Source: Leifsonia xyli subsp. xyli str. CTCB07 (GTDB taxonomy: Bacteria > Actinomycetota > Actinomycetes > Actinomycetales > Microbacteriaceae). From it: a DNA stretch of 64,000 bases. Numbering within the stretch: the first letter of the stretch is position 1; each line of letters opens with the position of its first letter. The stretch lies in contig NC_006087.1 in NCBI RefSeq assembly GCF_000007665.1, forward strand, positions 2,520,159 through 2,584,158, read 5' to 3'. The translations under genes were made by a program, and so were the position numbers. Shown here piece by piece: positions 10,843 to 47,400 of this stretch. The notes below the pieces were generated by a model. It searched no databases. It saw only the letters and a program-made list of their open reading frames with translations, and was not told where the DNA came from.

Positions 10843-12272
10843 CTACCCAAACGGGGTGTACACGGTCGTAATGTCACCCGTCCACCCCTGCTTCTCAAGC
10901 ATCTTGTCCACGGCGTCTTTCGCCGCCTGTGTGGAGAGGTGCCACTCGATCCGCATGCCATTCGCCGCCCTGATCTGATTCCCGATCTGCTCCAGGGTTC
11001 CTTCCTGCCAGAAGGTTTGGTTGAGGGGTGGGTATTTCTGCCAGTCTTTGGCGTCGAGGAGGACGTTGCGGGTTTTGTCGTAGCCGTCGAAGTCGACCCC
11101 GTTGACTTTGTATTCGGTGCCGCGTTCCATGCCGGTGATGAACTCTTGGTAGTCTTGGCCCTTGGTGCGGGTGGGGGATTTCTCCCATAGCCCTGGTCCG
11201 CCGTCGCTGGTGACTCGTGCTGTCTCTCCGAGGCGGAGTTTCTCGCCGGGTTGCAGTGGTCGTAGTTTCGGGATGTCGTCGGCTTTCCCGAGCTTGCCGA
11301 CGGTGCCGAGTTTCCCCACTTTGCCGAGTTTCAGGAACGGGAGGGCGAGGGTGAGGGCTGCGAAGGTGGCTCTGCCGGAGGCTTGTCCGGGGTGGTCTTT
11401 CCAGAGGTCGGCGTAGGTGAGGGACTTCCAGATCTGGTCCCATTGGTCACCAAGTACCCCGCCGGGGTTGTTGATGAACGCGTCCCATTTCTGGGCTTGC
11501 CGTTCCCACCCTTCGGGTGTGAACAGTTCCTCGACGACCTGGGGGACCCACACGATAGGAAGAAGCTGCCCCAACCCGATGACGGTGTCCCAGGCCTCGC
11601 CGAAGAACCCGGTCAGGAACTCCCCGATACCTTCCCAGACCTCCGGGGTCGGCTTCGGCAACCCACCGGGTGGGATACCGACCACGGGAACAATGCTCGG
11701 GCCGCCGCTACCCTTCAGTGACGGGGTGACACCACTGGTGGTGCCTGCCGCGGCACGGATCTCTGCGGCGACCTCGTCTCCCACCCGGGCAAGGGTCGCC
11801 CGGGCGGTGTCGAGGCGGGTTTGCGCGTCTGCCAGCCCGGTGCCACCGGGGTCGGTGAAGGGGGTGACGGTCGCTTCGGGCGTGCCGGGGTCGGCGGTGG
11901 CGGCTTTCCGAGTGGCGTCCCGGTGTTCCTGCTTCGCCGCCTGGGTGGCCTGCTACGCGGTCTTCGCGTCGGTGATCGCGGCCCGCGCCTCAGCCCGTGC
12001 AGCCTGGAACGCGGACTGGTAGCGGAGCATCGTTGCGGCGACACGGTTGAGCGCGGGCGGCAGCATGCCCGTGTGGCCGGCTTCTTCGGGGTGAAGGCCC
12101 GCCAGGCGTTGCCGCCGCGGCCTTCCCATCCGGGGAGGGTCATCATCTTCCACGCCCCGGCTATCTGCCGGGCTGGTCCGACACCGGAGCCGATGTTCTG
12201 GACCACGTTCTCGATCGCGGCGGGGTTACCGGGGATGAGTTCCTCGACGGTGGAGGCGCCGGTGAGGGTCAT
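10843..12272 (-). pseudogene. Type VII-secreted polymorphic toxin with C-terminal Tox-REase-5 nuclease domain, inactivated
   Basis: Read from ATG 12272: ASTVEELIPGNPAAI and a WxG-type turn PGWEGRGG are the N-terminal secretion domain of T7SS-exported polymorphic toxins. Near 12084 (a GAAGAAG stretch) the frame shifts by one base; the sequence continues with NRVAATMLRYQSAFQAARAE. At 11953-11955 an in-frame TAG interrupts a helical linker. The 3' frame is then open to 10843 and ends in a restriction-endonuclease-fold toxin: NGVDFDGYDKTRNVLLDAKD contains the D..D-x-K active-site pattern. The intact protein would have been about 476 residues. The two lesions leave only a headless C-terminal frame (GTG/ATG starts inside). 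Directly followed by its Imm52 partner. Confidence 0.72.
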
Positions 12273-12617
12273 GCGTTCACCATCCGGGTGGCGGCTTGCG
12301 CTTGGACGATGCCCATACTCGTCACCTTTCATCGCGGCATTCACGTCACACTCAGTGGTTTCGGGAGCCGGTGCCCGTTGACCGAGTGGACTGATCGGTC
12401 TAACGCTAGATGACACGCACCGGCGAGCACTATTCCGTATTCCACATGCCTCGCCGTCCCCGGGGCACGAACGTCCGCTCAGCGCACGACGGCAGGGCAA
12501 GCGCGCGGAGATGATGCACGTTCCGTGCAGTGCGCTTCGCACCGACCCGGATAAAGCACGAGCGCCCGCTCCGCCGGGGGTGGCGGTGCAGGCGCTGTGC
12601 TCGTGGCAGGTGTTGCG
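12273..12617. other. Gap between toxin and recombinase remnants
   Basis: No gene of normal size. A 15-codon minus-strand frame (12269-12316, opening MGIVQAQAA) has AAAGGTGA in front and overlaps the toxin start as ATGA, so it may be a leader peptide or the stump of an upstream WXG100-type partner gene. The rest shows no coding potential that I can see. Confidence 0.4.
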
Positions 12618-13870
12618 TCAGATGGTGCGTGCGGTGGGGTGCTGCTGCACGATTCGGTTAGGGTTCGGACGGGACGAGCACCTGGGCGAGGAGAGTGCCG
12701 AGGGCGTTGTGGATGCGATGGGCAGCACCGGCATGGCGTCCTCGTACTCGCGTTGCAGCACCACCAGTCGGTCCATGATCCGGTTCCGCTGCCTCGACCA
12801 GGTTGCCCGGTCGATCAGCCCGTCATAGTGGTCGTCGTCCAGCCGCTCCAGTGCCGCCCGGTCCGCCGCCAGTCTCTCCCGCATCCCGGTCACCTCCTCT
12901 TGCCCGGGCGTGCGGGTGGGGGAGCCTGTGAGGTCGGCCCGGAGAAGGCGGCGAGCACGGCATCCTCGATAAATGCCTGAATCGCGACGGCGTTGATCGA
13001 GCGGGCGCACCCGCCCCGAGTGTGGTGCCCACAAATGTAGTTCGGTCCCTGCTTGCGCATCTTGTGCCCGCACTTGCCGCACCGGATCAGTCCAGAGAAC
13101 GGCATCACCCACTTTGACGAGTACGTGCGCCCTCCATTCTTCCTCGCCCGCCGTGCATCCAGCACCGCGACCGTCTCGTCCCAGGCATCGGCATCCAAGA
13201 TCGGGGTCCAGTTCCCCTCCACCACCACCTCGGGGGCCGTCGCCCACGACCCACCCGGCAACACCGGCCGGTACGTTCGTACGCCCTTCAAGACCGGGTT
13301 CCGCAGAATCTGCTTCAACGCCTTCTCGCTCCACCGCACCCCGTGCATCGTCACCCACCCCGCCTGGTTCCACCGGTTGACGATTCTGTACACGCTCTCC
13401 CCAGCCCGCACCCGCTCCGACGCCTCACGCACCAACGCCGCCCGCTCCGGCACCACATACAGCGTGGAGTCGCCCGTCCGGTACCCGTACGAGGCGCGGC
13501 CCCCATGCCAACGCCCGTCGATGGCCTGCTGCTTCGACGCCCGCGCCACCCGCCTGGCGGTGTCCGCAGACGACTTGTTCGCCATCGCCACCAACACCCG
13601 GGCCATCGCCACATCGCTGTCCGTGTCCAGGCGCAGGCTTCCCGTGGCGGACTTCACCCCCTACCCGTGCAGCACCTTGGAGTCGATCAAATCCTCCAGG
13701 TCGCGCGGGTCACGCACCGCACGGTCGAGGTCGTAGGCGATCAGCACGTCCCCGCCGTCGTTCGCCAGCAGTTGGAGCATGGTGCGGAACTTCGGGCGTA
13801 TCACCCGGCGGACCTTCTCGCCCGAGGGCAGCACGATGGTGCCCCTGGCCCCATGACCCGCTCCGGCGTA
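12618..13870 (-). pseudogene. Large serine recombinase (phage/element integrase type), truncated and interrupted
   Basis: The fragment starts inside the resolvase catalytic domain (DGGDVLIAYDLDRAVRDPRD near 13740), lacking the N-terminal part with the catalytic serine. A TAG at 13661-13663 stops this frame; it resumes as KSATGSLRLDTDSDVAMARV. Next come the recombinase domain (about 13130-13560, with WHGGRASYGYRT and ILRNPVLKGVRTYRP) and a zinc ribbon, CGKCGHKM...CGHHTRGGC. Near 12910 another shift leads into the C-terminal coiled coil DRAALERLDDDHYDGLIDR. With the 5' end lost and at least two lesions it is inactive. It is the only mobile-element gene in the island and may have brought in the toxin-immunity pair. 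Confidence 0.75.
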
Positions 13871-14648: not shown

Positions 14649-15104
14649 TCAGAGGTAATACCAGCTGAACCTCGCCGTGAGTCCTCCGTACCCGTAGGAT
14701 ACGATGCTGACGGTCATGACGATGTTCCCCCGGCTCTTCCCCCCGACGTAATAACATTTGACATACTGGAAGCCGTGCTTGGCCGGGCAGCTCTGGTCCG
14801 AACGGTAGTCGACGCGTTCGCCGCGCATGTCCAAATGGTCAGCGCCGGCGAGATGGACACCGTCCCAGTAGGAAGTCGAATCGGCATTGTTGCAGTCCGC
14901 GATCTGCCCACCCGATTTGCCTGAGTTGAACCACTCGCTGGCCGCGCAGTTCGCAAGTCGTTTAACGGATGTCGACTGCCAGGAGAAGTCTCCGGATGTC
15001 GTGTAAGACTCGTCGGCATGCGCAGCTCCGGCAGTGCCGGCGACGAGCGTGATCGTTGTGATGCCCGCGAGGAGCAGGCGGGAGAATTTGCGCGATAATC
15101 GCAT
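14649..15104 (-). CDS. Small secreted protein with four cysteines
   Basis: 151 residues. A classical Sec signal peptide: basic MRLSRKFSR, hydrophobic LLLAGITTITLVAGTAGA, cleavage probably after AHA near residue 30. The mature part (about 120 residues) is polar, with Gly, Ser, Tyr and four cysteines (in NCAAS, ADCNN, QSCPAK and KCYYV), which suggests two disulfides in an extracellular fold, and it ends in beta-type alternation, GGLTARFSWYYL. AAAGGAAA lies eight bases before ATG 15104. I recognise no family; secreted small Cys proteins in plant-associated bacteria can act on the host, but nothing here proves that. Confidence 0.65.
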   Translation of the reverse strand: MRLSRKFSRLLLAGITTITLVAGTAGAAHADESYTTSGDFSWQSTSVKRLANCAASEWFNSGKSGGQIADCNNADSTSYWDGVHLAGADHLDMRGERVDYRSDQSCPAKHGFQYVKCYYVGGKSRGNIVMTVSIVSYGYGGLTARFSWYYL

Positions 15105-15360
15105 GGTGTTTCCTTTCGATTGTGAGTGACGGGCTTCAGCTCGCCCGAACACGCTGAAGGGTAGAGGTCGCCGGGAAACAGCGGCAGCTCTCCCGGATGA
15201 CATGTGCGTGAACAGGGTCTGAATCAGCCCTGACGCCGGGAGCGAGGAAGGGACGGCCGGTTCCACCTGCTCATCCACCGTCGCGGACGCTTGGGATGCC
15301 GGTGCGATGCGGCGGGGCCAAGATGATGAACGCGCATGAACCATCTCGAGCGACCGGGGT

Positions 15361-15886
15361 TTCATCCACAGCATGATCGGGCGCACTCTCTCCACATCCA
15401 TGCATTTTGTTCTCCACAGCGTGTGGAGAACAAAAATGCTGGTCAAAAGCTTTTTCTCGCTCCGAAAATGACGGTTATCCCCAGAAAGTCTTGCGTTTAT
15501 CCACGAGATTTCCCCGGTCATGACCATCTTTTCCACACGGTTATCCACAGGCAGATCGCTCGAGGGCGGCAAGCACGGCGTCCGAGGCATCCTCCCCACA
15601 TCGACCCGGCACGCAATGATGCGCCCTCAGGCCGCCGTTCGCACTTCTGAGCACAGCGACTCGCCTCGCGAGCGCGGCGGGGCGCGGCGTCATCCACAGC
15701 TCGGATAACGGTGTGAATGACACGATTGTGTTTTCGCACACAGCTTCGAAAATCGCATCTGTGGAGCAAATAACCTGATCAAAGCACTTTTCTCTAAGCT
15801 GAGAATTCTGCGGTCATACACAGGTCGCGCGTATCCTCCACAGTTTTTCCGCATTCTTCCACGTGTTGTCCCCAGAGTTATCCACA
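15361..15886. promoter_or_regulatory. Cluster of DnaA-box-like sequences in an 896-base gene-free region
   Basis: Between 15105 and 16000 I see no gene. The region is A+T-richer than its surroundings and contains two perfect TTATCCACA boxes (15541-15549, 15878-15886) and at least eight one-mismatch variants: TCATCCACA (15362, 15690), TTCTCCACA (15410; inverted at 15422-15430), TTATCCCCA (15475), TTATCCACG (15497), TTTTCCACA (15529); TTGTCCCCA (15866) is one off the actinobacterial form TTGTCCACA. Most point the same way. This density is that of an origin or of a DnaA-titrating locus, not of chance in a high-G+C genome. The chromosomal oriC is expected beyond rpmH at the right end, so this would be a second DnaA-binding locus. 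Confidence 0.6.
15405..15435. repeat. 14-3-14 perfect palindrome built from two facing DnaA-like boxes
   Basis: TTTTGTTCTCCACA, the spacer GCG, then its exact complement TGTGGAGAACAAAA. Each half contains a TTCTCCACA box, so two boxes face each other. Could be a protein-binding operator or a cruciform-forming element within the DnaA-box cluster. Confidence 0.6.
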
Positions 15887-16000
15887 GCTGCGCAGCAGGG
15901 AAGCGGCGGCTGCGGAAAGCGCCAATCCGATCGGCGGGTCCGCGTCGAATCCCTGATCGAGGTGGGTGGCCCGCCCGCCGTCGTCAAGGAGGAACGAACA

Positions 16001-46925: not shown

Positions 46926-47176
46926 GTTCTCTCCTCACTTGTTTCGGCACGCCTGACGGGTAAACGCTCTCGCACTGCCTCTAACGTGAGTCGCGGGCAC
47001 CTGATTGCGTTCTCCGACGCGCCGCACCGCGCTTCTGGCGGGCTGACAAAACACTGAAGCGCGCTCTCAGAGGCAGAATACGAACAACCACCGACACTCG
47101 GACGCGCTTCCCCATCCATGTCCACCTTGGACATCGATCACCCTACGAACCCCGATCCAGCATCCACAACTTTGCC

Positions 47177-47197
47177 TGTGGATAACTTTGTGGACAA
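47177..47197 (-). promoter_or_regulatory. Two perfect DnaA boxes upstream of dnaB
   Basis: TTATCCACA (47177-47185) and TTGTCCACA (47189-47197), both on the minus strand three bases apart; a one-mismatch TCATCCACA lies at 47367-47375. They sit in the 523-base gap 46926-47448, part of which (47235-47300) is strongly A+T-rich. No gene is visible in the gap. They probably allow DnaA control of dnaB transcription. Confidence 0.6.
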
Positions 47198-47400
47198 TCT
47201 GCGGGAAACGCCGCCACGCTTGTGTACAAGTTGGGAATGGATCTGTGGGTAGAGAGAAAATTTTAGTGTTAAAATGTACCTTAACCAGCGATTTTTCTTT
47301 CCGCATCCTGTGAGGAAAAACTTCTTTGGGCACTGTGGCAAGCGCTGAGATTCGGGCGTGTCGAACTGTGGATGAAGCTGGGCAAACTTCCCCGAAAAAG

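Follow-up and report, generated by a model that had tools for sequence, protein, structure and literature searches.

Why does a non-coding gap some 50 kb from dnaA hold so many DnaA-like boxes in the genome of Leifsonia xyli subsp. xyli, a sugarcane pathogen? We analyzed the final 64,000 nucleotides of this genome, which is a single contig (the window), in which the cluster lies at 15362-15886 and the start of dnaA is just past the end; the distance between the two is 49.7 kb, with the contig taken as circular. The original prediction was that the cluster is a second DnaA-binding locus with two perfect boxes and eight one-mismatch boxes, and the count is exactly as claimed (the perfect boxes are at 15541 and 15878). 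Across the window, there are 21 matches to TTRTCCACA with at most one mismatch, and 10 of these fall within the cluster. When we shuffled the window 100 times, we obtained an average of 8.2 matches and at most 19. With 1,000 local dinucleotide shuffles of 15361-15886, the mean was 0.20 boxes and the maximum was 3, versus 10 observed. The whole genome (2,584,158 bp) has 509 boxes with at most one mismatch, compared with 264 matches for a reversed control pattern, and this genome-wide rate predicts 0.10 boxes per 526 bp. The density of boxes is thus far above both of the yardsticks that we used, the shuffles and the genome average. The cluster's G+C content is 0.54, versus 0.67 for the window. 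Exact matches to TTWTCCACA are scarce (22 genome-wide), and three of them are in the cluster and three are in the gap between dnaA and dnaN, which carries three exact copies of TTATCCACA. In short, these are non-coding boxes outside of oriC, in numbers beyond chance, as in an oriC-proximal DnaA-box cluster.

To look for the cluster in other bacteria, we used a blastn-type search of 60 genomes. It detected the cluster's right half in 23 of the 28 that belong to the same genus. We then used a sequence-only profile, R1, with 219 aligned columns from 23 genomes of the genus: 21 from the blastn-type search and two (G012 and G014) that were located through their flgB regions. Both L. xyli genomes were left out of R1. 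The profile matched all 28 of the genus genomes searched (E ≤ 1.8e-34), including the five that had no blastn-type match, so the locus is conserved in related Leifsonia. Named records with the element's pattern include Leifsonia aquatica, L. poae, L. shinshuensis, and L. virtsii. Each genome has one strong match, to which L. xyli adds a degenerate second copy. The boxes in the predicted 530-base cluster are real, but what was described as one cluster is actually two copies of one element of about 205 bp. The parts of the main copy are as follows, with the box positions numbered B1 to B6:

15687..15890, + strand: right (main) copy of the ~205-bp DnaA-box element (R1, E = 1.4e-36)
15690..15698, + strand: distal box B1, TCATCCACA, 188 bp before B6
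15775..15781, + strand: non-box motif, CTGRTCA-like, between B1 and the B3-B6 array; A-rich before it and T-rich after it
15812..15820, + strand: degenerate box position B2; the window has ATACA, and 16 of 25 genomes have a CCACA ending
15834..15842, + strand: box position B3, TCCTCCACA, 44 bp before B6
15855..15863, + strand: box position B4, TCTTCCACG; relatives mostly have TCATCCACG/C/T or CCATCCACC
15866..15874, + strand: box B5, TTGTCCCCA, 12 bp before B6
15878..15886, + strand: box B6, TTATCCACA, a perfect box, identical in 25 of 25 genomes

The layout is rigid. An alignment of the element from 25 genomes has just two gap columns among its 219 columns, one at the edge and one an internal single-base gap (in 8 rows). 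Positions B2 to B6 are spaced by about 22, 21, 11, and 12 bp and are all in one orientation. The distal box B1 reads TCATCCACA in 19 of the 25 genomes and has the form NNATCCACA in all of them, and B3 is identical in all 25 even though TCCTCCACA has two mismatches from TTRTCCACA. On average, columns within boxes are 91% identical, versus 71% elsewhere. There are 64 invariant columns, with 33 among the 54 box columns and 31 outside of the boxes. Ungapped pairwise identity is 40-82% inside the element and falls to 31-36%, close to background, just outside. In the cluster loci of 21 relatives, even the densest 600 bp hold only 1-5 boxes (at most one mismatch); therefore, the affinity of DnaA for positions other than B6 is uncertain.

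Some of the conserved sequence lies between B1 and the array. Within the CTGRTCA-like motif, the C, G, and C at 15775, 15777, and 15780 are invariant in all 25 genomes, and 15 of the 25 have CTGATCA or CTGGTCA. Its CTGGT core is also present in the left copy and in a related copy between rplI and dnaB (see below). We propose that this motif might be the site of a bend or of a partner protein. Closer to B1, at 15715-15750, are conserved non-box stretches that are GTGTGAATTACAC-like and TTTCGAA...TTCGA-like; a LexA-like reading of the latter is conceivable. ATTACAC words that resemble these stretches appear in clusters of the rhomboid-crgA type. We also considered a structured RNA element and rejected this: RNAalifold predicts 4 pairs, with changes on both sides for 0 of them, and no Rfam family matches within the window at its gathering score. 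Given the lack of any covarying pair, we treat the element as a DNA element.

The second copy in L. xyli is what made the cluster conspicuous:

15360..15555, + strand: left, degenerate copy (R1 matches 15430-15555, E = 1.2e-7)
15560..15630, strand not assigned: apparent remnants of both ends of a beta-lactamase-family gene (read by eye; the gene body is absent)

The left copy's boxes are at 15362, 15410, 15422 (- strand), 15475, 15497, 15529, and 15541, with offsets of 12, 44, and 66 before the end box. In L. xyli subsp. cynodontis (G022), the left copy is nearly full-length (E = 1.9e-11 over positions 8-209 of the R1 model; in the whole-genome search with R1, E = 4.3e-9 over 84-208), and a beta-lactamase-family gene lies between the two copies (L046 9570-11201). 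As this gene has apparently been reduced to remnants of its ends in subsp. xyli, the copies seem to have been brought together there. Between the two subspecies, the right copy is identical at 184 of 204 positions (51 of 54 box positions and 133 of the 150 others). With conservation at the boxes barely above that at the other positions, this comparison by itself gives little sign of extra constraint on the boxes. Within the left copy, 15405-15435 is a perfect 14-bp inverted repeat (TTTTGTTCTCCACA/TGTGGAGAACAAAA) that holds two boxes; the repeat is imperfect in subsp. cynodontis. To the left of the cluster, 10846-13657 encodes a protein with a Tox-REase-5 domain and a serine recombinase-type protein (PF07508 and PF13408), which suggests a mobile or polymorphic-toxin region.

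The element's position relative to dnaA is also conserved. In all 23 genomes in which the two share a contig, they are on the same strand and the element is on the upstream side. Among these 23 genomes (of 28; four contigs were taken as circular), the distance to dnaA ranges from 49.7 to 127.8 kb, with a median of 61.1 kb. So, the relatives also keep the element near oriC, and this constant place may partly reflect a general conservation of gene order.

In contrast to its position, the element's neighbors change. In 23 of the 28 genus genomes, a match to the flgB rod domain lies 159-247 bp from the element. In the other five, flgB does not adjoin the element, which is still present. The neighbors there are different: the DUF4383 side in L. 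xyli and a UPF0014 gene in G015, G019, and G027. In G015, no match to a rod gene was found anywhere in the genome that we searched, and the element has a beta-lactamase-family gene on one side and the UPF0014 gene on the other. In G005 and G023, the element's part of the flagellar region is flanked by relatives of both of these genes, and further flagellar-type genes lie beyond the UPF0014 gene. From this layout, G015 seems to have lost flagellar genes to either side of the element. A weak match of 18 residues (E = 0.007) beside the element in G015 is to the end of the open reading frame that precedes the element in G023; that frame has no match in Pfam and is fliT-like by position only. The region has a different, second type of flagellar locus in G019 and G027, where the nearest rod-gene match is about 11 kb from the element. 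L. xyli subsp. xyli has a flagellar locus of this second type at C1:628000-647500 (L119), which has zero boxes, while the element stays near dnaA. (Beside that locus is a pair of open reading frames that look transposase-like.) Overall, the 19.5-kb stretches with the second type of locus have no box in this genome or in G019 and one in G027. The contexts suggest that the flagellar neighbors changed independently three times. It had been argued that the cluster's survival under selection in a decaying genome speaks for a function, and our results support this: both L. xyli genomes keep the element, and elsewhere it is retained despite changed flanking genes.

The cluster is real, yet it is not merely a second DnaA-binding locus, as there are further clusters at C1:17282-17412 and in the gap between rplI and dnaB. 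The latter has the same layout:

47173..47380, - strand: same-layout element between rplI and dnaB (R1, E = 2.2e-7 over model positions 4-209)

Its boxes are at 47177, 47189, 47221, and 47367, with offsets of 12, 44, and 190, where the right copy has 12, 44, and 188. All 28 genus genomes have a weaker second match to R1 that is closer to dnaA (18.2-25.5 kb away in the 23 genomes in which this was measured); within the genus, we checked the dnaB context of this match for our window alone. Across the family, 158 of 398 genomes had matches to R1 (E ≤ 0.001), 10 of them in the genus, and 240 had none. Among the best 20 of the 148 family loci outside the genus, 19 are beside dnaB and 17 of these have rplI as well (L147 is unclassified; a dnaA context could be missed there because the dnaA and dnaN queries were in the wrong reading frame, and the results for dnaB and rplI are independent of this).

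We also collected loci by their dnaB genes, without reference to R1. We found rplI upstream in 26 of 30 loci from the family (including our own genome) and in 12 of 29 loci from the class. In the family, 26 of 26 rplI-dnaB gaps have at least one box and 21 have at least three, with a mean of 4.3 boxes versus 0.18 expected. In the class, 11 of 12 gaps have at least one box and 5 have at least three, with a mean of 2.7 versus 0.14 expected. We then asked how often the element's offsets recur in a fixed stretch of 591 bp per locus (29 loci from the family and 29 from the class, regardless of rplI). In the family, offsets of 12 and 44 occur at 14 and 13 of the 29 loci, compared with means of 0.7 and 0.6 and maxima of 4 and 3 at random. 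Offsets of 55 and 67, which are rungs that the Leifsonia element lacks, occur at 11 and 10 loci. The longer offsets, 188 and 190, occur at 4 and 3 of the 29 loci, which is not clearly above chance (random maxima of 3 and 4), and neither was found among the 29 class loci. In the class, offsets of 12 and 44 occur at 6 and 4 of 29 loci (random maxima of 2 and 3). Thus, the short ladder is common to both loci, and the distal box is clearly shared in this window only.

Other gaps near oriC also have matches to R1. In a search of the order, 33 of 297 genomes had matches to R1 (E ≤ 0.001), with 15 from this family and 18 from other families. Of the seven loci that we kept from outside the family, five are near a rhomboid-like gene and two are near dnaA-like sequence (a match to a query in the wrong frame); neither rplI nor dnaB was found at any of the seven. 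That the best matches outside the family are at other oriC-proximal gaps argues against a simple origin of the element from the rplI-dnaB gap only. A search for the pattern returned 27 stretches, 12 from Leifsonia and 15 from other bacteria. We inspected seven of these 15: stretches from Gulosibacter and from an Actinomycetota MAG are in rplI-dnaB gaps, a stretch from Gulosibacter is in a gap of the rhomboid-crgA type, and four have no recognized neighbor; the remaining eight come mostly from other phyla. At C1:17282-17412 (L011 and L126), five DnaA-like boxes are flanked on one side by a gene that we take to be rhomboid-like and on the other by a small gene that we take to be crgA-like.

What does the element do? 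We think that it is probably a cis-acting DnaA-binding element that helps to control initiation from oriC, and we give this reading a probability of roughly 70%. Its conserved phasing, uniform orientation, and distal box suggest that DnaA forms a defined complex there. Simple titration would need boxes but not fixed phasing, so a defined complex favors an element for the control of initiation. Among the original suggestions, the datA-like, DnaA-titrating reading fits best. The cluster also withstands the two refutations that were named with them: its density of boxes exceeds both the shuffles and the genome average, and the element is conserved in 28 of 28 genus genomes searched. In the proposed mechanism, DnaA would load cooperatively onto the directional B2-B6 array, and the distal B1 would be placed about 190 bp from the end of the array across an A+T-richer spacer that has its own conserved motif and is probably bent by a nucleoid protein. 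Being roughly 50-130 kb from dnaA, the element would be copied soon after initiation. The doubled boxes would then withdraw active DnaA, either through titration or through a change in its nucleotide state like that at datA, and re-initiation would be discouraged. In this scheme, we infer that DnaA occupies the element, that the spacer is bent, and that initiation is affected.

Because flgB so often lies within 159-247 bp, with the element upstream of it, the element might instead be a DnaA-regulated promoter of the adjacent operon that couples motility to the cell cycle. We consider this unlikely: five genomes keep the element beside other neighbors (the DUF4383 side or a UPF0014 gene), the second-type flagellar stretches are nearly free of boxes (0, 0, and 1), and, in our window, neither a promoter of the sigma-70 type nor an intrinsic terminator was found in the gap (15100-16000). 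Given the 31 invariant columns outside of the boxes, the element might instead be read mainly by some other protein; some of these columns fall within 15715-15722, 15728-15749, and 15826-15832. This protein would be a conserved DNA-binding protein involved in chromosome organization or segregation, and the boxes would be secondary. Yet it is the box columns that are better conserved (91% versus 71%), and the rplI-dnaB gap has box offsets in common with the element even though much of the other sequence differs, so we view this explanation as quite improbable.

It had also been suggested that the cluster is the origin of a decayed integrated replicon or an oriC that was displaced by rearrangement. 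The pair of boxes 11-12 bp apart does resemble a pair in the dnaA-dnaN gap (a weak match to R1, E = 0.0043), and a recombinase gene is nearby (12893-13657). However, a decayed replicon is contradicted by the constant side and strand of the element in 23 of 23 measurable genomes, and a displaced oriC conflicts with the intact dnaA and the box-rich gap between dnaA and dnaN. Nor is the cluster beside dnaA or at a change in skew: within the window, cumulative GC skew is lowest at 57-62 kb, near the dnaA end, and it does not turn at 15 kb. An origin of either kind is therefore very hard to credit. It is just as hard to believe that box-like words without a function built up here by chance or because of base composition. 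The gap is A+T-richer, but the local shuffles never gave more than three boxes, and the element is nearly free of indels across 25 aligned genomes; we rejected this explanation because of the shuffles and the conservation.

We can extend the preferred reading, an element for the control of initiation, to a fuller account, which is tentative and, taken as a whole, less likely to be right than wrong. The rigid nucleoprotein element, with its boxes in one orientation, offsets of 12 and 44, and a distal box at about 190 bp, would be an actinobacterial counterpart of datA or DARS that changes the state of DnaA and does not just bind it. Its ancestors would be older arrays near oriC (between rplI and dnaB and perhaps also in the rhomboid-crgA gap, with the 12 and 44 offsets traceable in the class sample). 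The element would have been copied once in the Leifsonia lineage and retained as flagellar genes around it disappeared or gave way to others on three or more occasions.

The control of re-initiation in actinobacteria is poorly known. To our knowledge, they lack Hda and SeqA. The element's fixed geometry and its one strong match per genome make for short and precise targets. Its persistence in the reduced genome of a plant pathogen, and without flagellar neighbors, amounts to a natural experiment that points to a function of the DNA itself. A DnaA-box cluster near oriC is already known as a kind. What appears to be new is the rigid layout that is kept in all genomes of the genus that we searched, along with the short ladder that it shares with the rplI-dnaB gap. 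In the open-licence literature, we found no paper on DnaA boxes in Microbacteriaceae, and in a search for DnaA boxes together with rplI or dnaB, the word rplI was not found among the matches listed.

How does the Leifsonia element compare with known systems? A DnaA-box cluster reportedly regulates replication in Streptomyces coelicolor (Smulczyk-Krawczyszyn and colleagues, in 2006), and Okumura and colleagues are said to have described oriC-proximal DnaA-box clusters (DBCs) of Bacillus subtilis in 2012. The portions of reviews that we drew on describe these clusters, in S. coelicolor as in B. subtilis, as repressors of untimely initiation. According to another review, in the part that we used, removing all six of the B. 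subtilis clusters led to early initiation, but it judges them not to be significant in comparison with E. coli. The S. coelicolor cluster, as described, is like the element in that it is from an actinomycete and its boxes are outside but near oriC, and it is reported to repress untimely initiation. Its role is reported, though, whereas we propose the role of the Leifsonia element from sequence. The B. subtilis DBCs, which we liken to the element by their description, are several clusters outside of the origin that are thought to bind free DnaA. In Leifsonia, there is instead one rigid layout of about 205 bp that is genus-wide in the genomes searched and is echoed at a second locus. In the accounts of E. 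coli that we had, DARS1 and DARS2 are also compact and conserved arrangements of DnaA boxes away from oriC; DARS reactivates DnaA, and the Leifsonia sequence does not separate activation from inactivation.

The E. coli locus datA is several hundred kb from oriC, versus about 50 kb for the Leifsonia element. The IHF-dependent hydrolysis of DnaA-ATP belongs to datA, while the Leifsonia element is known from its DNA sequence alone. Still, as far as datA is described in our sources, both are non-coding DnaA-box loci in which spacing matters and whose distance from oriC is conserved, and where datA has an IHF site between its boxes, the Leifsonia element has the conserved CTGRTCA-like motif after B1 and before the array.
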